Below, one piece after another: positions 18,831 to 30,962 of a DNA stretch of 31,524 nt; positions within the stretch are counted from its first letter, which is position 1; each line of letters opens with the position of its first letter. The position numbers were made by a program, and so were the translations under genes. The stretch covers positions 1 to 31,524 of the IMG/VR virus record IMGVR_UViG_3300029319_000283, one strand, 5' to 3'. The notes beneath the pieces are model-generated. The model searched no databases, was not told the origin of the DNA, and saw nothing but the letters and a program-made list of their open reading frames with translations. Origin of the DNA: a virus.

Positions 18831-20050
18831 GCTGAATACCTCCCTGTTTCTACGTCTAGTTCTACATGAACTGTGCCATGCCAACCTGTTAGTTTGTTTT
18901 TAGCCAATCGAATGTGCCTTTGAGGATCGTTACTGTCCTGTCCTTCAATGTCAGGGTTCTTACTAATTAATAACATTAAATCTGCCTCTGCTGCCTTGCC
19001 TGTCTTGCTACCCTCAAGCATGGATTGGTTAACATTTATCTTACCTTCAGCCTCTGCTGATAGTTGGGACATCCATATTATAACGCAATTATACTTCTTG
19101 GCAATGTTTCTTGCATGAATTGCAGCCTCCTTGAGATAAATATCTGATCTTTCTGATCCGGCTGTTGCAAACTTATCACCCATATCAAGAATAATTATGT
19201 CCGGCTTTACACTTTTCGCAAGCTGTTCAACATAATCCATGTTCTTATCTGTGGCATCTTTGATGGATAGAAAGCCTCTTATGGGATCGTATCTCTCTAG
19301 TGCTTTCTTTCTGTTCTCCAACACTTGATCGCTAGACATATTAGATTTGCAATAGAGATACCGGAGTCCAACTCTCTTGTACGCCTCCTCGTTGCACAAC
19401 ACTACACACCTTGCACCCTGATCTATAAAGCCACCCTCAGAGGCTATGATGCTAGAGTGAAATGATGTCTTTCCGGTATTTGGTCTTGCTCCCACTATAA
19501 CAAAATGTCCACCACTTAATCCCTCAACCCTTCTGCGTAAGGATGGGATGTTAAACTTCCATTGGAACTTTAAGTTAAGGTGATCTACTAGAGTATCAAA
19601 ACTTATGTCATCTCCTTGGAACTTAAAACTAGGAGTGAAGTCATCCTGATAATTATCTAGTATATTTCTAAGTGGCTCAAGATTATTCTTTGTGCCGTTC
19701 ACATAATCAAAGCCTATGTTGGCTACCTCTTCTCCAACCATTTGTTGAAACAACTTAGACAAAACTTCTTTGGCTATATCATTGTTCATTGGCTCTTCTT
19801 TGGACAGCTTACTAAACAACACCTCAAAGGATGCCTTATTCGCTGAGGTCATAGTGCCGTTGTCAGAAAAGAACAAAGCCTGTAGCTCTGTCAGAGATAA
19901 GTTCCTCTCGTGTTTTTTCATAGCCTCGTCTAGTGTGCCTTTTATTTTACGAACATCTTTACTAAACAATCGATCCGGACATTTACTACCTTTATGCTCT
20001 TCATAAAAGTCTTTTTGCATTAAGCTTCTAATTAGTGCTAGTTCTATCAT
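18827..20050 (-). CDS. Replicative DnaB/T7 gp4-type helicase (no primase domain)
   Basis: 407 aa. Residues 1-165 are an uncharacterised helical N-terminal part. The RecA-like core starts near 180: Walker A GARPNTGKTS at 187-196 (K194), a Walker B-like segment PDIIILDMGDKF near 280, IIWMSQLSAEAEG, and a C-terminal arginine/lysine block RHIRLAKNKLTG. This is the hexameric 5'-3' helicase expected to unwind DNA ahead of PolA. The primase, fused to the helicase in T7 gp4, is encoded two genes upstream here. It overlaps the GIY-YIG gene by 23 nt and the 107-aa gene by 4 nt. Confidence 0.92.
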   Translation of the reverse strand: MIELALIRSLMQKDFYEEHKGSKCPDRLFSKDVRKIKGTLDEAMKKHERNLSLTELQALFFSDNGTMTSANKASFEVLFSKLSKEEPMNNDIAKEVLSKLFQQMVGEEVANIGFDYVNGTKNNLEPLRNILDNYQDDFTPSFKFQGDDISFDTLVDHLNLKFQWKFNIPSLRRRVEGLSGGHFVIVGARPNTGKTSFHSSIIASEGGFIDQGARCVVLCNEEAYKRVGLRYLYCKSNMSSDQVLENRKKALERYDPIRGFLSIKDATDKNMDYVEQLAKSVKPDIIILDMGDKFATAGSERSDIYLKEAAIHARNIAKKYNCVIIWMSQLSAEAEGKINVNQSMLEGSKTGKAAEADLMLLISKNPDIEGQDSNDPQRHIRLAKNKLTGWHGTVHVELDVETGRYSA

Positions 20051-20654
20051 TCTGTATCTTCTCCTCTATTAATCCATCAATAAGACCTAACATCTTGTCA
20101 AAGTCTTCCTTGTCTAAATTCTCTATGTAAAACCATTCTTTAGCTCTCTTACGGCTTAAACCCTCAGCCAAAGAGTGTGCCATCTTCTCTGCTACACCTC
20201 TATGTTTAAACTTTTTGTAGGTAACTAACTCATAATCCCTGTGAGGACTACCTGTCTGATAACCATTACATCTATCTGTAGACTCAATAGCCTTTCCAAT
20301 CTTATACCAATTCTTCCAAGCAGGGTTCTTTAGTATATACACTTCACCCTCAGTAGACAGTATGTAGTTAGCTAAAGAAGAATATGCAGCATCGGTAAAA
20401 GTTTTATATCTTCCAGGCTTGTATAATGGATGTTTTCTTGATATGTACTTACCGTCAACATACATCCGTAATGGATTATTTATTTTTGCTTTCTTTGGGT
20501 TGTCTATTATGTCCCTAGCTTTTTGTTCTTTCTTGTGACACTCCTTACATTTTAAAGTTTGTGACTCGTATGTGTTATCTCTTGTTAAAAGAACGTCACA
20601 TGCTTTGCAATTCTTATTGTGTTTCTTTCCTGTATACAAAACTATTTTATCCAT
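20028..20654 (-). CDS. GIY-YIG nuclease-like protein with N-terminal zinc ribbon
   Basis: 208 aa. The N-terminus has two CXXC pairs (C16/C19, C36/C39), a zinc ribbon-like element. Residues about 103-180 fit the T5orf172/MUG113-type GIY-YIG fold: EVYILKNPAWKNWYKIGKA with VYI at 105-107 and YKIG at 117-120, then R128 in TDRCNGYQTGSPHRDYEL, AEKMAHSLAE with E156 and H160, and the EWF strand at 173-175. Such proteins are either homing-type endonucleases or resident nucleases. It sits between primase and helicase and overlaps both, with AAGGAGG 7 nt upstream, so it is integrated in the operon. Catalysis has not been shown. Confidence 0.75.
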   Translation of the reverse strand: MDKIVLYTGKKHNKNCKACDVLLTRDNTYESQTLKCKECHKKEQKARDIIDNPKKAKINNPLRMYVDGKYISRKHPLYKPGRYKTFTDAAYSSLANYILSTEGEVYILKNPAWKNWYKIGKAIESTDRCNGYQTGSPHRDYELVTYKKFKHRGVAEKMAHSLAEGLSRKRAKEWFYIENLDKEDFDKMLGLIDGLIEEKIQNDRTSTN

Positions 20655-21435
20655 TAATCAACCTCCTTAGTTTATTAAAGTCATTCTCTCGTTTGTATTT
20701 TAAATCATCTTCTATCTGTAGTCCATACACTTCTGATGGATCACAGTAACTCTTTAACTCTTTAGTATACTGAATAGTCTTACCAACAGCATCAGGGTCA
20801 AGAGCCACAACAACTATCTCAAAGGTATCAAGATATTCTTTATGCTCTTTTAACAGGCTCGTACCTAACAATGCTACTCCGGTAACTCCCATAAAGTTTT
20901 CCCCAATAACTGTAGCTGATACAACATCCTCAACAACAACAGCAATACTTTTACTAGGTCTTATACAATACGAATAATATTTTGCAGCCCCTCCATATTT
21001 ATACCACTTTGGTTGTGCGTTGTATAAGGCTCTGCCTATAGCATCAATAACTCTGCCATTCTTGTAGATAGGGAATACAGCACGTTGACTTTTACAATCG
21101 TACAGTAACTCTATATTTAGATCCCAACGTCTTTTAAATCGCTGTACATAGGCGTTGTTGCCATCCGTTATGTACTCAGGCATCTCAAACTTCTTAGTCT
21201 CTACCACCTCTTCTTTGCCTTGTATTTTATTCTTGATTGTCTCCACCAACATTGGAGTCAGTGTAGCACCTTTTACATCACAACTATTTCTGTAACAGTT
21301 ATATATGATTAAGCCATCCTTGTTTGTGGCTGTAAACTTTTTAACTCCGTTACATATAGGGCAATCCAAAGTTAATGTTTCTCCTTCTTTCACGTCTAGT
21401 CGTCTTATAAAATCATTACTAGGTTTGTTTACCAT
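20647..21435 (-). CDS. DNA primase, TOPRIM type with zinc-binding N-terminus
   Basis: 262 aa. The N-terminal zinc site is C25/C28 (CPIC) with C47 and C52 (NCYRNSC), as in T7 gp4-type primases. The TOPRIM domain has E169 in AVVVEDVVSA and D213/D215 in VVALDPDA. It synthesises RNA primers for the PolA replisome. At about 260 residues it is a stand-alone primase without the helicase half; the helicase is a separate gene two positions downstream. It overlaps the integrase gene by 17 nt. Confidence 0.88.
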   Translation of the reverse strand: MVNKPSNDFIRRLDVKEGETLTLDCPICNGVKKFTATNKDGLIIYNCYRNSCDVKGATLTPMLVETIKNKIQGKEEVVETKKFEMPEYITDGNNAYVQRFKRRWDLNIELLYDCKSQRAVFPIYKNGRVIDAIGRALYNAQPKWYKYGGAAKYYSYCIRPSKSIAVVVEDVVSATVIGENFMGVTGVALLGTSLLKEHKEYLDTFEIVVVALDPDAVGKTIQYTKELKSYCDPSEVYGLQIEDDLKYKRENDFNKLRRLING

Positions 21436-22330
21436 TGTTAGCCTCCCTTCTTTCTAAAGCACTTGCCGCCGATTTGTATGTATGTCTAATGTAAGGACGC
21501 ATTGAGTTAGGACTACTGTGTCCGGACACTGCCATAATCTGAGTAGTATCCACTCCGGCTTCTACCATTTCAGTTATAGCTGTGCGTCTCATGTCCATCG
21601 CTGTTAATTCTTTTGGTATGTTTGCCTCCTCTTTTATTCTGTTAACCACTCTACTTATTTCTACATCAGTGTAGACAACATATCCTCCGTTTCTAGGAAG
21701 AGGATGGGGCGCAACGTATTTCTGAAACCCAAAATCTTTATGCTGTTGTTTTAACATCTTGTAAATGTTTTCTGTGATAGGTAAATGTACCTCTGCTCTT
21801 TTCTTAGATTGTTCAAGATCAAGTCTACGTTCCTCAAAGTTTATGTTGCTCCATTCTAAAGTTCGCATATCTCCTATTCTCTGAGCAAAAGTATAAGCCA
21901 TATGAACTATTAGTCCAATGCTCCTCCACTTATACTCTGAGTAAGCTGTGTCTAAGAAGGAGCTAACTTGATCGCCTGTCCACATAACCTTACGAGGTTT
22001 AGTCTGCATCTTCTTAACAAACCTCATTGGATTATTTGGCATCAACTCTAGCTCAACAGCTAAATTAAATAGTATTGATGCCACTGTTGAGGTCATGTTA
22101 GCTTGCCTAACTCCGGCATTTAGCCAACTTTGATAGGCAATTTTGCACTCAGACACGCCAATCTTCCCTAGAATAGTGCTACCCATTGTAACTTTGGGGC
22201 TGAAAAACGCCTCTACAATACGCTTAATACAGTAATCGTAGTCTTTTTGGGTTCTCATACGCAGAGATAAGAACTGTGGTGTTGTCCTGTAGTAGTCAAC
22301 AAGATCGTTCAAAGTCTTAATCATCATCAA
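21419..22330 (-). CDS. int: Tyrosine recombinase / integrase
   Basis: 303 aa (three consecutive ATG codons, so the real start may be 22324). The N-terminal SAM-like core-binding domain spans about residues 1-105. The catalytic domain has R151 (AFAQRIGD-like, here YTFAQRIGDMRTLEW), K176/K177 in the beta hairpin, R248 in MDMRRTA, H271 in GHSS and nucleophile Y280, nine residues after H271 as usual. The first His of the HXXR box is Met245, an unusual substitution. It implies site-specific integration or genome resolution. It lies inside the replication operon rather than next to a visible attP or repressor, and no matching attP could be recognised. Confidence 0.9.
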   Translation of the reverse strand: MMMIKTLNDLVDYYRTTPQFLSLRMRTQKDYDYCIKRIVEAFFSPKVTMGSTILGKIGVSECKIAYQSWLNAGVRQANMTSTVASILFNLAVELELMPNNPMRFVKKMQTKPRKVMWTGDQVSSFLDTAYSEYKWRSIGLIVHMAYTFAQRIGDMRTLEWSNINFEERRLDLEQSKKRAEVHLPITENIYKMLKQQHKDFGFQKYVAPHPLPRNGGYVVYTDVEISRVVNRIKEEANIPKELTAMDMRRTAITEMVEAGVDTTQIMAVSGHSSPNSMRPYIRHTYKSAASALERREANNGKQT

Positions 22331-22388
22331 CCACCCACGCTATCACAACTATTATGGTGTAAGCTATCAATGCCAATAGATATCCCAT
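22317..22388 (-). CDS. Tiny membrane peptide (23 aa), candidate gene
   Basis: ATG at 22388, directly overlapping the TGA of the 79-aa gene, encodes MGYLLALIAYTIIVVIAWVV plus three Asp. It is almost entirely a single membrane span with a negatively charged C-terminus. Its stop runs 14 nt into the integrase gene. Overlaps at both ends and the lack of other content in this stretch support translation. At this length coding cannot be proved from the sequence alone. Confidence 0.4.
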   Translation of the reverse strand: MGYLLALIAYTIIVVIAWVVDDD

Positions 22389-22627
22389 CACTTCATCTCC
22401 TTTGGTTTAGGTAGAGGTATCCTAACTTCTACTACTTTCTTTTGTCTCCACATTACTGTTCGTTTTCCGTTACCCTCAAACGCAATAGCGAGGGCATCTT
22501 TACTTACAAAACCAGGGTCTAGTTCCCAAACATATCCGGCTCTTCTATTCTCTCTAGCTTGGTGTATAAACTCTTTGTTTTGCTCAATAAAAACTAATGC
22601 TGCAAATCCTAAAAACATATCTGTCAT
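22388..22627 (-). CDS. Small phage protein of unknown function (79 aa)
   Basis: The start was set at 22627, 1 nt after the hydrolase stop and 8 nt after GGAG; the ATG at 22663 would extend into the hydrolase gene. It begins MTDMFLGFAALVFIEQNKEF (short hydrophobic segment, residues 4-14), then becomes basic and ends with a Pro/Lys tail (VRIPLPKPKEMK). It may be a membrane-associated partner of the neighbouring cell-wall hydrolase, but no family is recognised. Confidence 0.5.
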   Translation of the reverse strand: MTDMFLGFAALVFIEQNKEFIHQARENRRAGYVWELDPGFVSKDALAIAFEGNGKRTVMWRQKKVVEVRIPLPKPKEMK

Positions 22628-22628
22628 G

Positions 22629-23057
22629 TTACTTCTCCCATCTATAAAATATATGTTTGTCAATTCGTGTTGTTCTAGTCTTGGTCTTTGCCCACTCCGG
22701 ACGGACGTAGGTTGCGTGATAGTGCGTTGCTCCTTCCGTTACATCAAGCACTACGTTTTTGGTTACGAGAATAGATGCATACTCTAATGCATATCTCCAT
22801 GTTTTACTTTCCATATTAGGTTCATCTTTCTTGCCATCACAATACCATGTAAACTGACATTTCCAACGAACAGGTTTATTTGTTCCCTTGTACGTAACAG
22901 CTTGTTTAACCACCTCACATATAGTATTAGGAAATCTTGTGTCCTCAACTCTGTTTAGAACTACTTGCCCTACAGCCATTTGTCCTATCATCGATTGATT
23001 CCCTGCCTCATGGTAGATGTTAACTGCCATGCACATTAGTGCTGTTTCTAATATCAT
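22629..23057 (-). CDS. SleB-type cell-wall hydrolase (Hydrolase_2 family)
   Basis: 142 aa. The SleB/CwlJ catalytic segment is clear: MAVNIYHEAGNQS with catalytic Glu17, followed by GQMAVGQVVLNRVEDTRFPNTICEVV, the usual VvlNRv.....P.ticeVv block. QFTWYCDG and ATHYHATYVRPEW are also as in the family. This family cleaves peptidoglycan glycan strands. No signal peptide is present, so it would need a holin-like path or act inside the virion. It lies in the leftward replication region among small membrane proteins, far from the M15 endolysin at 30.5 kb. Confidence 0.85.
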   Translation of the reverse strand: MILETALMCMAVNIYHEAGNQSMIGQMAVGQVVLNRVEDTRFPNTICEVVKQAVTYKGTNKPVRWKCQFTWYCDGKKDEPNMESKTWRYALEYASILVTKNVVLDVTEGATHYHATYVRPEWAKTKTRTTRIDKHIFYRWEK

Positions 23058-23196
23058 TATTAGATGCCTCCTTAAACTGTTGTATCATTTCAAAGTCTTC
23101 CTCCGTAGCATCATCAAACTCTTCATCAATAACTTCTGACGATGCCCCATCGTTGTAAGACTCAAATGAATAAAATATTTGACTCTTCTTTCTCAT
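23020..23196 (-). CDS. Small acidic protein (58 aa)
   Basis: Starts MRKKSQIFYSFESYNDGASS and has a strongly acidic middle (EVIDEEFDDATEEDFEMI). AGAGGAGAT lies immediately upstream of the ATG, one of the best ribosome-binding sites of the region. It overlaps the hydrolase start by 38 nt, so it may control hydrolase translation by coupling. The acidity is reminiscent of DNA-mimic or inhibitor proteins, but that is only a resemblance in composition. Confidence 0.55.
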   Translation of the reverse strand: MRKKSQIFYSFESYNDGASSEVIDEEFDDATEEDFEMIQQFKEASNNDIRNSTNVHGS

Positions 23197-23207
23197 ACTA
23201 ATCTCCT

Positions 23208-23375
23208 CTAGTGTAATACTTCATGGTCAAACTCCGGATCATGCTCCACATATCCCACTATCTTTGCGTCAATAATATTCTCGTGATCTATATCCCAATA
23301 ACATTCTCTTGCCACAACCTCTGTGTTAGGTGCGTCATGCTCCACCTTAATTATTATATAAGACCATTTACTCAT
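23208..23375 (-). CDS. Small hypothetical protein (55 aa)
   Basis: Reads MSKWSYIIIKVEHDAPNTEV and continues with acidic and His-rich residues (VEHDPEFDHEVLH). The ATG overlaps the TGA of the 37-aa gene (ATGA) and there is no separate ribosome-binding site, so translation is probably by coupling. A small alpha/beta protein with one cysteine. It shares only the first residues with the 107-aa gene at 18830. Function unknown. Confidence 0.5.
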   Translation of the reverse strand: MSKWSYIIIKVEHDAPNTEVVARECYWDIDHENIIDAKIVGYVEHDPEFDHEVLH

Positions 23376-23485
23376 AGAATAAGCTGAACAAATGCGTTCA
23401 ATCCCATAGTCATGGTTATCAACAAGAATATAATAAACAATAGTGCTATACCCTCGTCATCATTATTATTGTTATTCTTCTTCAT
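23372..23485 (-). CDS. Tiny single-span membrane protein (37 aa)
   Basis: The start at 23485 was chosen because GGAGG lies 10 nt upstream; a longer frame from 23617 would overlap the 79-aa gene heavily. The protein has a polar Asn-rich head (MKKNNNNNDDEG) and one membrane helix (IALLFIIFLLITMTMGL). It overlaps the 79-aa gene by 14 nt. Function unknown; one of several membrane microproteins clustered here. Confidence 0.5.
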   Translation of the reverse strand: MKKNNNNNDDEGIALLFIIFLLITMTMGLNAFVQLIL

Positions 23486-23711
23486 GGCAAAAGTTCCTCC
23501 AAAATTTACAGTTGTTATCTGATTTGCACACTCTCTCATGCTTGGCTGTCTCCCAACATTCCGATTGCCAAGGCGAAAAGTATTTTGCTGCAAATCTGTC
23601 AGACCAATCTTGTCCATCGTTTAACCACAGGGCAAAGATGGGTAAGGGTATGAGTAACAGGAAGACTACAAAGAAAGCTTTGCCGAATCCCTCGTTATGA
23701 TATGGTTTCAT
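23472..23711 (-). CDS. Single-span Cys-containing membrane protein (79 aa)
   Basis: A short basic N-terminus (MKPYHNEGFGKA) precedes a membrane span at about residues 12-30 (FFVVFLLLIPLPIFALWL). An outside domain follows with Trp-rich (DWSDRFAAKYFSPWQSECWE) and four cysteines at the end, suggesting disulfides in the periplasm. It immediately abuts the 74-aa membrane gene upstream. No lipobox and no family recognised. Confidence 0.5.
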   Translation of the reverse strand: MKPYHNEGFGKAFFVVFLLLIPLPIFALWLNDGQDWSDRFAAKYFSPWQSECWETAKHERVCKSDNNCKFWRNFCHEEE

Positions 23712-23936
23712 TTATATTCCTTTCTTTTTGTTAAGACCTTTTGGGTCATACTGATCGTCAACAATTTCATCCGGCATAAATCTACTGCCTGTTCCATCGT
23801 CAAACCAATTGTTTAAAAACATTAGTGTTATCATAAATATCATAACATAACTGAACCATTTCACAAACCATATAAACAATCCGTAGGCTTGCTGTGCCTG
23901 TTCTAATGCTTGTTGCTTTACGTCATCATCATTCAT
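23712..23936 (-). CDS. Single-span membrane protein (74 aa)
   Basis: The N-terminus is acidic and Gln-rich (MNDDDVKQQALEQAQQAYG). A membrane span at about residues 21-42 (IWFVKWFSYVMIFMITLMFL) and an acidic-to-basic tail ending GLNKKKGI follow. Stop and next start are adjacent, consistent with one operon. No family recognised. Confidence 0.5.
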   Translation of the reverse strand: MNDDDVKQQALEQAQQAYGLFIWFVKWFSYVMIFMITLMFLNNWFDDGTGSRFMPDEIVDDQYDPKGLNKKKGI

Positions 23937-25151: not shown

Positions 25152-25250
25152 TTAAAATTGAAAATACCATCTTACTAGTTGATCTAAAATATAACACGCT
25201 CCAACGAGCAATATAAAAACAGATAGTCCATGACCACTTTCTTTATACAT
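25152..25250 (-). CDS. Tiny single-span membrane protein (32 aa)
   Basis: Encodes MYKESGHGLSVFILLVGACY followed by ILDQLVRWYFQF, one membrane helix at about residues 9-25. GGAGGG lies 8 nt before the ATG, inside the 3' end of the methyltransferase gene, with an 8-nt overlap. The strong ribosome-binding site makes it a good microprotein candidate. Function unknown. Confidence 0.5.
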   Translation of the reverse strand: MYKESGHGLSVFILLVGACYILDQLVRWYFQF

Positions 25251-28094: not shown

Positions 28095-28835
28095 TTAGTT
28101 AATAACAAAACCTGAATTGTCTTTACGTGCCTTACCCTTAGCTTTTAAACCTACAACTACATTTTTAGGGTCAAGAAAACGTAAATCATCCTTATCACCA
28201 TTTATTACTTTTAAGTTTAAAAACTCTTTAGGTAAATCTTTTCTAAAGACTACAGCAATATTTAAACCATTCTTGATAGCTGTTTTGTAGTGTTCAGAAT
28301 ACCAAGTATTAGCTTGTGAATAACTCCACGTTAAAGAATAGTTTTTAATCTTGGAAACATCACGTTTAAAAATCTTGGTGTAGTCGTAGAAAACCACGTT
28401 AGGAAATAAATCAAATACTGTTTTATTATCTTTCATTATTATCTTTTCCCATTGTATGTCCGTTGTTCCGTTTAATCTTACGCAAGCTTGAACACCGGAT
28501 TTAGTACACTTGTTTTCAAATTTAGTAATATCTTGAAAGAGTAAATCTAAAAACTTTTCTCTTTCCTTGTAAAACATTGTTGTCTTTCTTTTACGTGCGT
28601 CTTGTACGGTGTTTGTAGTCTCTCCTTTTTTAAATATACCTCCACGTCCTGCAGTATTAAGACAAGGTTTAAAACAGCTAGCTTTTTCTGCTAGTGGACA
28701 AGAATTATATTCTTTATCATCTATCAATAGTTTAAATGGTGTTCCATAAAATATAGCTGTTACATATTCTTTTCCGTCACCTTTTATTGTCTTAGCATTG
28801 TTTCCGGCACTGATTATATTTCCTTTAAAATTCAT
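28095..28835 (-). CDS. Cys-containing phage/plasmid protein of unknown function, first gene of leftward operon
   Basis: The start was set at 28835, where AGGTGA lies about 5 nt upstream (246 aa); an ATG at 28868 lacks a site. It has a cysteine cluster SCPLAEKASCFKPCLNTAGRG near residues 45-65, then KRKTTMFYKEREKFLDLLF, VRLNGTTDIQWE, and FYDYTKIFKR..K. I recall proteins with these same blocks (CP.A..C...CL.TAGRG, RLNGTSD..WE, FYDYTK) on many phages and plasmids, possibly related to the gene product 88 (GP88) family. Their role is unknown to me. As the first gene after the control region it is probably expressed early. Confidence 0.6.
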   Translation of the reverse strand: MNFKGNIISAGNNAKTIKGDGKEYVTAIFYGTPFKLLIDDKEYNSCPLAEKASCFKPCLNTAGRGGIFKKGETTNTVQDARKRKTTMFYKEREKFLDLLFQDITKFENKCTKSGVQACVRLNGTTDIQWEKIIMKDNKTVFDLFPNVVFYDYTKIFKRDVSKIKNYSLTWSYSQANTWYSEHYKTAIKNGLNIAVVFRKDLPKEFLNLKVINGDKDDLRFLDPKNVVVGLKAKGKARKDNSGFVIN

Positions 28836-29170
28836 TATATCACCTATTAGTTTTGTTGCTGTTGTCATTATCTAAGACATAAAAAATAAAATATGTAAAT
28901 AGTTTTTTTAAATTTTTTTACATTACGTCACGTCAACTATAAATTGTATATGTCCAATCTTGTTAATCCGTTGGTGTAAAACGACCAACAAAAAATATCC
29001 GGTATGCTTTCAGACACAATAAATGCAAACGGATAATTAAACAGTTTGTTTTTTAAGCAATAACAAGGACATAAATAATTATTTTTGTTGGAGAGTAGAG
29101 AATAAAATAAAAAACAGTCTTATATGTGCCGGATAAAATAAAAAATACACCATAACAGCACCAAAACGAC

Positions 29171-30045: not shown

Positions 30046-30405
30046 ATGCTTGGAACTCTAATAAGTTCTGTATCTAATTTAGCATCGTCCTACATCGAAG
30101 GTAAAACAGCGATACAAAAAGCTGAAGCCACGATTAGGATGAAAGAGGCAACAGGCGAGATAGACTGGGACTTAGCTGCTATGAGGGCATCCCAAAGCTC
30201 CTGGAAGGACGAATGGCTGACATTGCTATTCAGTATTCCTCTGGTTTTGAGCTTCATGGGTGAGTGGGGCAGGGGCATAGTAGCAGATGGATTCACTGCT
30301 TTGGCAGGTATGCCACAGTGGTATCAGATTGCGTTAGGAGCGATCGTATCGGCTAGTTTTGCCACACGGTCTGCAAGCAAGTTGTTTAATATGAGGAAAA
30401 AATGA
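30046..30405 (+). CDS. 3-TM holin-like protein (119 aa)
   Basis: Resembles the GTA_holin_3TM type (Pfam) in layout: N-terminal amphipathic helix with KAEATIRMKEATGEIDWDLAAMRAS, the SSWKDEWLTLLFSIPLVLSF span (about 45-65), then a second hydrophobic region about 72-88 and a third about 93-110 ending in RSASKLFNMRKK. AAGGA precedes the ATG by 5 nt. It presumably forms the membrane lesion that lets the endolysin reach the cell wall. Confidence 0.75.
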   Translation: MLGTLISSVSNLASSYIEGKTAIQKAEATIRMKEATGEIDWDLAAMRASQSSWKDEWLTLLFSIPLVLSFMGEWGRGIVADGFTALAGMPQWYQIALGAIVSASFATRSASKLFNMRKK

Positions 30406-30476: not shown

Positions 30477-30497
30477 ATGGCAAAGTGGAGTATCCCA

Positions 30498-30962
30498 ATG
30501 TTTAAATTATCAAGTAGAAGCCTAGAGAAGTTGGAGGGAGTAAATCCTGTTCTTGTTGACACTGTAAAAGAAGCCATCAAGCTGAGTTCTGTAGACTTTG
30601 GAGTGATCTATGGGGTACGTTCCCTAGCAGAGCAGGAGAAGTTGTATAAATCCGGACGCTCACAAACAATGAAATCTAAACACCTGATCCAAGATGACAA
30701 GACATCACACGCTGTGGACCTCATGGCTTACGATGGCAGTAACCCAAGTTGGGACATCGTGATGTATGATGACATCGCAGACGCAATGAAAGCCGCTGCT
30801 CTGAAAACAGGAGCTAAAATTTGTTGGGGCGCTGCCTGGCACATTGAGGATATAACAAAGTGGGATGGCACAATGGAGCAAGCCATGAACGCTTATATAG
30901 ATTTACGTAGGGGACAGGGCAGACGACCCTTCATCGATGGTCCTCACTTTCAATTGAACTAA
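30498..30962 (+). CDS. Peptidase M15-type endolysin
   Basis: The start at 30498 was chosen: GGAG lies 7 nt upstream and the protein then opens MFKLSSRSLEKLEGVNPVL, as is typical of this endolysin family. An ATG at 30477 has no site. The 154-aa protein has GVIYGVRSLAEQEKLYKSG (residues 35-53), SKHLIQDDKTSHAVDLMAY with likely zinc ligands H62 and D74, and GPHFQL with H150 near the end. It probably cleaves peptide bonds in peptidoglycan. No signal peptide, so it relies on the holin. Confidence 0.87.
   Translation: MFKLSSRSLEKLEGVNPVLVDTVKEAIKLSSVDFGVIYGVRSLAEQEKLYKSGRSQTMKSKHLIQDDKTSHAVDLMAYDGSNPSWDIVMYDDIADAMKAAALKTGAKICWGAAWHIEDITKWDGTMEQAMNAYIDLRRGQGRRPFIDGPHFQLN

Follow-up and report, generated by a model that had tools for sequence, protein, structure and literature searches.

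We analyzed the 31,524-nucleotide (nt) virus record IMGVR_UViG_3300029319_000283, here called the window, and all coordinates are positions in it. Our subject is a block of small genes around a gene for a SleB-type cell-wall hydrolase. We propose that three small membrane proteins of this block, the 74-amino-acid (aa) tm74, the single-span 79-aa tm79, and the 37-aa tm37, may form a respiratory or redox membrane module that is shared with the host, and that the SleB protein beside them may be an accessory lysin. We give this functional reading a probability of roughly 45%. A respiratory or redox role is the most economical one because tm74 resembles an oxidase subunit, tm79 has four invariant cysteines, and the neighbors of tm79 include redox-type membrane proteins. 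The four genes are as follows, with the ratio of nonsynonymous to synonymous substitution rates (dN/dS) or the family match where it characterizes the gene.

23712..23936, minus strand: tm74, a 74-aa single-span protein, homolog of the PF07835 family, dN/dS 0.06.
23472..23711, minus strand: tm79, a 79-aa protein with one span and a Cys-rich domain at the C terminus, a new family.
23372..23485, minus strand: tm37, a 37-aa single-span protein that starts within the end of tm79 (14-nt overlap), dN/dS 0.18.
22629..23057, minus strand: a SleB-type cell-wall hydrolase of 142 aa, PF07486 match with an E value of 1.6e-25.

Sequence comparisons lend good support to the homology of the tm74 family with subunit IV of the alphaproteobacterial aa3 cytochrome c oxidase. 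Seventeen of 23 diverse tm74 family members matched PF07835 (COX4_pro_2), with a best E value of 6.5e-7, and four members scored above the gathering score of 22 (22.7 to 29.9 bits). No other Pfam family was matched by more than one of the 23. We also compared the tm74 profile with an alignment of 29 COX4 proteins harvested from alphaproteobacterial genomes. This profile-profile comparison gave a probability of 89% and an E value of 2e-6, with residues 11 to 46 as the aligned segment. The controls stayed low, at 2.4% or less for 60 segment-wise column shuffles and at 2.5% or less for tm79 and tm37. In the same analysis, real tm74 members scored as high as 25.8 bits, against 9.2 for the top one among 4,600 shuffled sequences. 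When the tm74 family profile was searched against 177,635 PDB sequences, the top five matches were all cytochrome c oxidase subunit IV chains, at E values of 0.4 to 1.2. A PDB search with our first tm74 and tm79 alignments returned nothing specific, a single tm74 member searched alone had no PDB match, and NCBIfam yielded no consistent family for tm74.

The aa3 subunit IV (PF07835; PDB chains 1qle_D, 1m56_D, and 7ate_D) and tm74 have in common a membrane-proximal segment and a transmembrane helix, and the likeness is significant at the level of the family. As expected of a subunit IV, tm74 has a single hydrophobic span and a short N-terminal segment. However, tm74 members are about 66 to 79 aa long and have, C-terminal to the span, an acidic tail that is conserved (DGTGS...). 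For this reason we call tm74 a homolog of subunit IV, and not subunit IV itself, and a shared function is putative. In the membrane, the N terminus of tm74 would face inward, and the acidic C-terminal tail would lie outside. We found no text on a phage-encoded COX4_pro_2 protein in the open-access library that we searched.

The second protein, tm79, matched no Pfam or PDB family and, on the evidence of these searches, is a new and previously undescribed protein family. Its members share the motif [SD]xCWExxKHExVCxxxNxCxxxRNFC, and four cysteines (C52, C62, C68, and C75) are invariant in a 40-member alignment. The Cys-rich C-terminal domain is probably periplasmic. We found 149 loci encoding tm79 relatives in the IMG/VR contigs scanned, and collected 131 distinct phage loci. 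AlphaFold modeled tm79 as a helix and a weak beta-hairpin, with moderate confidence (mean predicted local distance difference test score, or pLDDT, of 78; predicted template modeling score, or pTM, of 0.41). This model did not support a twin-Cys helical-hairpin (CHCH-like) fold, which we had considered for tm79.

The genes that overlap the end of tm79 supply the redox-type neighbors. Several tm79 contigs, often with tm74 as well, have an adjoining gene for a family B DNA polymerase or a UvsW-like helicase, which is typical of T4-like phages. In the loci with such T4-like replication genes, the commonest overlapping neighbor of tm79 is a DoxX gene (PF07681). The DoxX cluster was present in 13 of the loci examined, and its genes started a median of 16 nt ahead of the end of tm79. 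In the window, the same slot is held by tm37, but tm37 is a 37-aa single span and no DoxX protein. In two bacterial loci, a gene for a DCC1-like thiol-disulfide oxidoreductase overlaps tm79 by 13 nt.

Three contigs are worth recording here. Two phage contigs, L062 and L196, carry tm74 and tm79 followed by an overlapping DoxX gene, and L196 also has a gene for a PnrA-like ABC transporter binding protein nearby. A third contig, L211, is filed as a Euryarchaeota metagenome-assembled genome (PAZU01000016). It carries tm79 and then phage-type primase and helicase genes, and therefore looks like a misbinned phage.

Both genes also occur on bacterial chromosomes. One genus of marine alphaproteobacteria was represented by 22 incomplete single-cell genomes, of which 14 had tm79 and 9 had tm74, on contigs that carry ordinary bacterial genes. 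None of 197 other genomes sampled from the same bacterial family had tm74, and elsewhere in the class sample tm79 appeared only as one broken fragment. The bacterial tm74 is 54 to 63% identical to the podophage copies, and it is encoded in addition to a canonical subunit IV of 43 to 48 aa. In the trees, the bacterial tm74 groups with podophages, and the bacterial tm79 falls among T4-like phages. This difference in placement indicates that each gene moved on its own; the trees rest on about 80 columns and are too short to show whether phage or bacterium was the donor. These phages may plausibly infect members of the genus. One bacterial tm79 lies beside ctaD (L199), a lead that we dropped because the neighborhood is not kept in other genomes.

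In the module that we propose, tm74 would be an inner-membrane protein located at the terminal oxidase or close to it. The tm79 protein, with its disulfide-prone periplasmic domain, would work with tm74 together with an overlapping third membrane protein, which would be tm37 in the window and DoxX in T4-like phages. The module would keep or tune respiratory electron flow and the membrane redox state during phage replication. A more specific form of this proposal is possible but doubtful. In that form, a module present in two abundant marine phage lineages docks on the host terminal oxidase and reprograms it, the third partner is swappable, and one bacterial genus has its own copies.

Several observations weigh against a respiratory or redox role. 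The window tm74 itself scored below the Pfam gathering cut-off for PF07835 (E value of 0.066, 13.9 bits, cut-off of 22), and its homology would run through its relatives in the tm74 family. At about 43 to 50 aa, canonical subunit IV is shorter than tm74 and without its tail, and it has no known catalytic role. The tm74-tm79 pair is frequent, not obligate, since of the 99 phage loci that allowed the test, 53 had a tm74 gene upstream of tm79. The bacterial homologs do not lie in cytochrome oxidase operons, and bacterial tm74 and tm79 are found on different contigs. In addition, the usual overlapping partner of tm79 in the bacterial genus is an unassigned 91-aa membrane protein. A redox role of DoxX in phages would itself be putative, and no function was assigned to tm79 or tm37. 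A Foldseek search with the moderate-confidence tm79 model found no match.

We placed the phage that carries this block by its DNA polymerase and gene order. The DNA polymerase of the window shares 62% identity with its counterparts in Roseobacter phages CRP-603 and CRP-2, and 56% with that of Puniceispirillum phage HMO-2011. As in CRP-345 and CRP-1, the SleB, integrase, primase, and helicase genes follow one another on one strand, and the packaging genes and the M15 endolysin gene lie on the opposite strand. The polymerase identity and this gene order identify the window as a fragment of an uncultivated HMO-2011-type podophage. A related DNA polymerase, the kept order of the replication genes, and a late M15 lysin are all present. 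The known phages of this type (CRP-1, CRP-2, CRP-207, CRP-345, CRP-603, and HMO-2011) likewise have polymerases 56 to 62% identical to that of the window, the integrase-primase-helicase order, and a late M15 endolysin. They differ from the window in tm74 and tm79, for which tblastn found no match in any of 50,697 annotated phage records. Neither protein had a convincing PHROG family match. Cytochrome genes are not mentioned in the text of the paper on the HMO-2011-type group (PMC9038755). The SleB/microprotein block lies directly upstream of the integrase, in a replication-side module that is probably early. Its early placement comes from synteny with CRP-345 and CRP-1, in which SleB is just upstream of integrase, primase, and helicase. 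The other genes of the block, its flank, and the late lysin are listed here.

23208..23375, minus strand: a 55-aa soluble protein found in close relatives only, dN/dS 0.04 (19 relatives).
23020..23196, minus strand: a 58-aa acidic soluble protein with an isoelectric point (pI) of 4.2, whose gene shares 38 nt with the start of SleB.
22388..22627, minus strand: a 79-aa basic protein, pI 9.7, with a short hydrophobic N-terminal segment, dN/dS 0.11 (13 relatives).
22317..22391, minus strand: a 24-aa single-span microprotein with a GTG start that overlaps the integrase start, with syntenic homologs in close relatives.
21419..22324, minus strand: the tyrosine integrase that flanks the block, PF00589 match with an E value of 8.8e-22, phrog_1.
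30477..30962, plus strand: the late M15-type endolysin (first lysin), 72% identical to a putative endolysin of CRP-345 and 67% to that of CRP-1.

A preliminary description, made from the letters of the window, had listed a SleB hydrolase, up to four single-span proteins, an acidic protein that overlaps the hydrolase start, and a 79-aa protein with a short hydrophobic segment. All of these are present, and all are on the minus strand. The best 19-residue Kyte-Doolittle means were 2.47 for the 24-aa protein, 2.39 for tm37, 2.68 for tm79, and 1.89 for tm74, with one clear span each. The basic 79-aa protein reached only 0.84 and is no clear membrane protein. Most starts in the block are preceded by a Shine-Dalgarno-like sequence. 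We rejected a mechanically called 81-aa open reading frame (ORF) at 23372-23617 as a gene; the conserved start is an internal ATG at 23485, which gives 37 aa. Elsewhere in the window, a 32-aa single-span ORF with a Shine-Dalgarno-like sequence (25152-25250, minus strand) directly follows a cytosine methyltransferase gene and is a further microprotein candidate. A protein with a T5orf172/MUG113-type (GIY-YIG-like) domain is encoded between the primase and helicase genes (20028-20654, minus strand), and a Gene product 88 family protein (PF17338, E value of 1e-40) is encoded at 28095-28868 on the minus strand.

Selection analysis supports the reality of these frames. The median dN/dS against relatives lay between 0.04 and 0.20 for every frame, and was 0.08 for both tm79 and SleB. 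The 24-aa frame had a dN/dS of 0.20 from only 6 usable relatives, and the test of the 58-aa frame had only 2. These low values argue that the small frames are genuine genes under purifying selection, with few relatives behind the 24-aa and 58-aa results.

Superinfection exclusion had been one suggestion of the preliminary description, and nothing that we tested favors it. In such a scheme, tm79 and tm74 would block DNA entry or the receptor of competing phages, and the bacterial copies would be domesticated immunity genes. Small membrane-anchored proteins of a replication-side module do match the general form of known exclusion proteins, and the bacterial copies occur in a single genus only and branch within the phage diversity of each gene, as for phage-derived genes kept by a host. 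T5 Llp and T4 Imm, which we treat as leads only, are likewise small, membrane-anchored, and early, and Llp has a disulfide. However, we found no sequence relation between them and the tm proteins. PADLOC gave no match at E values up to 1, and the sole exclusion-type PHROG match had an E value of 0.31. The homology of tm74 is to an oxidase subunit, and the recurrent neighbors DoxX and the DCC1-like protein give no hint of exclusion. In addition, the very strong conservation of tm74 and tm79 (dN/dS of 0.06 to 0.08) is unlike that of an arms-race gene. We therefore regard superinfection exclusion or membrane immunity as unlikely.

It is similarly improbable that the block is a hypervariable accessory region, in which unrelated small genes are adjacent by chance and SleB may even be virion-associated. 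The 24-, 55-, and 58-aa genes and the basic 79-aa gene are indeed limited to close relatives, tm74 and tm79 differ in tree history, and gene order varies across loci. However, the overlap of tm79 and tm37 is seen again and again across the podophage loci, and in 83 of 119 loci the tm37 start is close to the end of tm79. Furthermore, tm74 and tm79 are frequent neighbors in both the podophages and the phages with T4-like replication genes, which are distinct lineages. In CRP-1 and CRP-345, SleB lies in the replication-side module and not among the virion genes.

The SleB frame is a Hydrolase_2 peptidoglycan hydrolase, judged by its family match and its catalytic Glu. It scored 90 bits against PF07486 (cut-off of 27), its catalytic Glu17 is kept in 111 of 111 aligned homologs that cover the position, and it is a relative of the solved SleB structures 4f55 and 4fet. 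The SleB proteins of CRP-1, CRP-345, and Melnitz are 48 to 54% identical to that of the window and share its Hydrolase_2 family, catalytic Glu, and size. In CRP-1 and CRP-345, as in the window, SleB is upstream of the integrase. By family, SleB gives the phage another muralytic enzyme besides the M15 cassette, as the preliminary description had proposed. We rejected its further view that such a second system is unusual, because SleB and M15 occur together in the isolates CRP-1 and CRP-345 and in 7 near-complete contigs that carry the SleB/microprotein region. The two lysins are a normal, recurrent arrangement in this phage group.

SleB and the membrane proteins part company in both directions. 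CRP-1 and CRP-345 have SleB at the same position without tm74, tm79, or tm37, and among the loci with T4-like replication genes, the majority have tm79 and/or tm74 with no SleB in reach. This pattern argues that the microproteins are not SleB accessories, and that SleB and tm74-tm79-tm37 are two separable things. We accordingly rejected a single lysis system with SleB as the leading explanation. The microproteins are conserved in relatives but do not form one system with SleB. The weakest alternative is the second lysis route of the preliminary description, a cassette with SleB as endolysin, tm37 or tm74 as holin, and tm79 as an antiholin-like regulator whose periplasmic domain would be disulfide-bonded. 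In its favor, 68 of 119 loci have a SleB start no more than 1.2 kilobases downstream of tm79, SleB still follows tm37 in L024 and L127, where the integrase has moved, and SleB has no obvious hydrophobic leader or export signal. This route is very unlikely, because the membrane partners do not accompany SleB, an M15 endolysin is already present in every near-complete podophage genome that carries the block, chromosomal tm74 and tm79 persist in bacteria as killing proteins hardly would, Pfam and PHROG searches of the window proteins gave no holin family match, and the oxidase homology points to respiration.

Next to a respiratory or redox module, SleB would be an accessory second peptidoglycan hydrolase alongside the M15 endolysin. 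Because it has no obvious export signal, SleB probably accumulates in the cytoplasm and would act once the late holin opens the membrane, which would be its simplest exit route. A 119-aa protein encoded upstream of the M15 endolysin (30046-30405, plus strand) matches phrog_2524 at 3e-28 and is likely the product of a late holin-like gene. Overall, what the preliminary description observed is confirmed, and its interpretation is partly supported.

Cyanophages carry photosynthetic electron-transport genes. We found no report in the open-access library searched of a terminal-oxidase-subunit homolog in phages of heterotrophic marine alphaproteobacteria. The microprotein set described here was invisible to annotation and proves real and testable. 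With tm79, it adds a new conserved family that two lineages of phages share with a single bacterial genus, and the two-lysin arrangement becomes a recurrent trait of the group and no oddity of the window genome. If tm74 acts on the oxidase, some of the most abundant phages in the ocean would directly manipulate respiration. This suggests that the virus would adjust the respiration of its host, beyond merely preparing to burst it.

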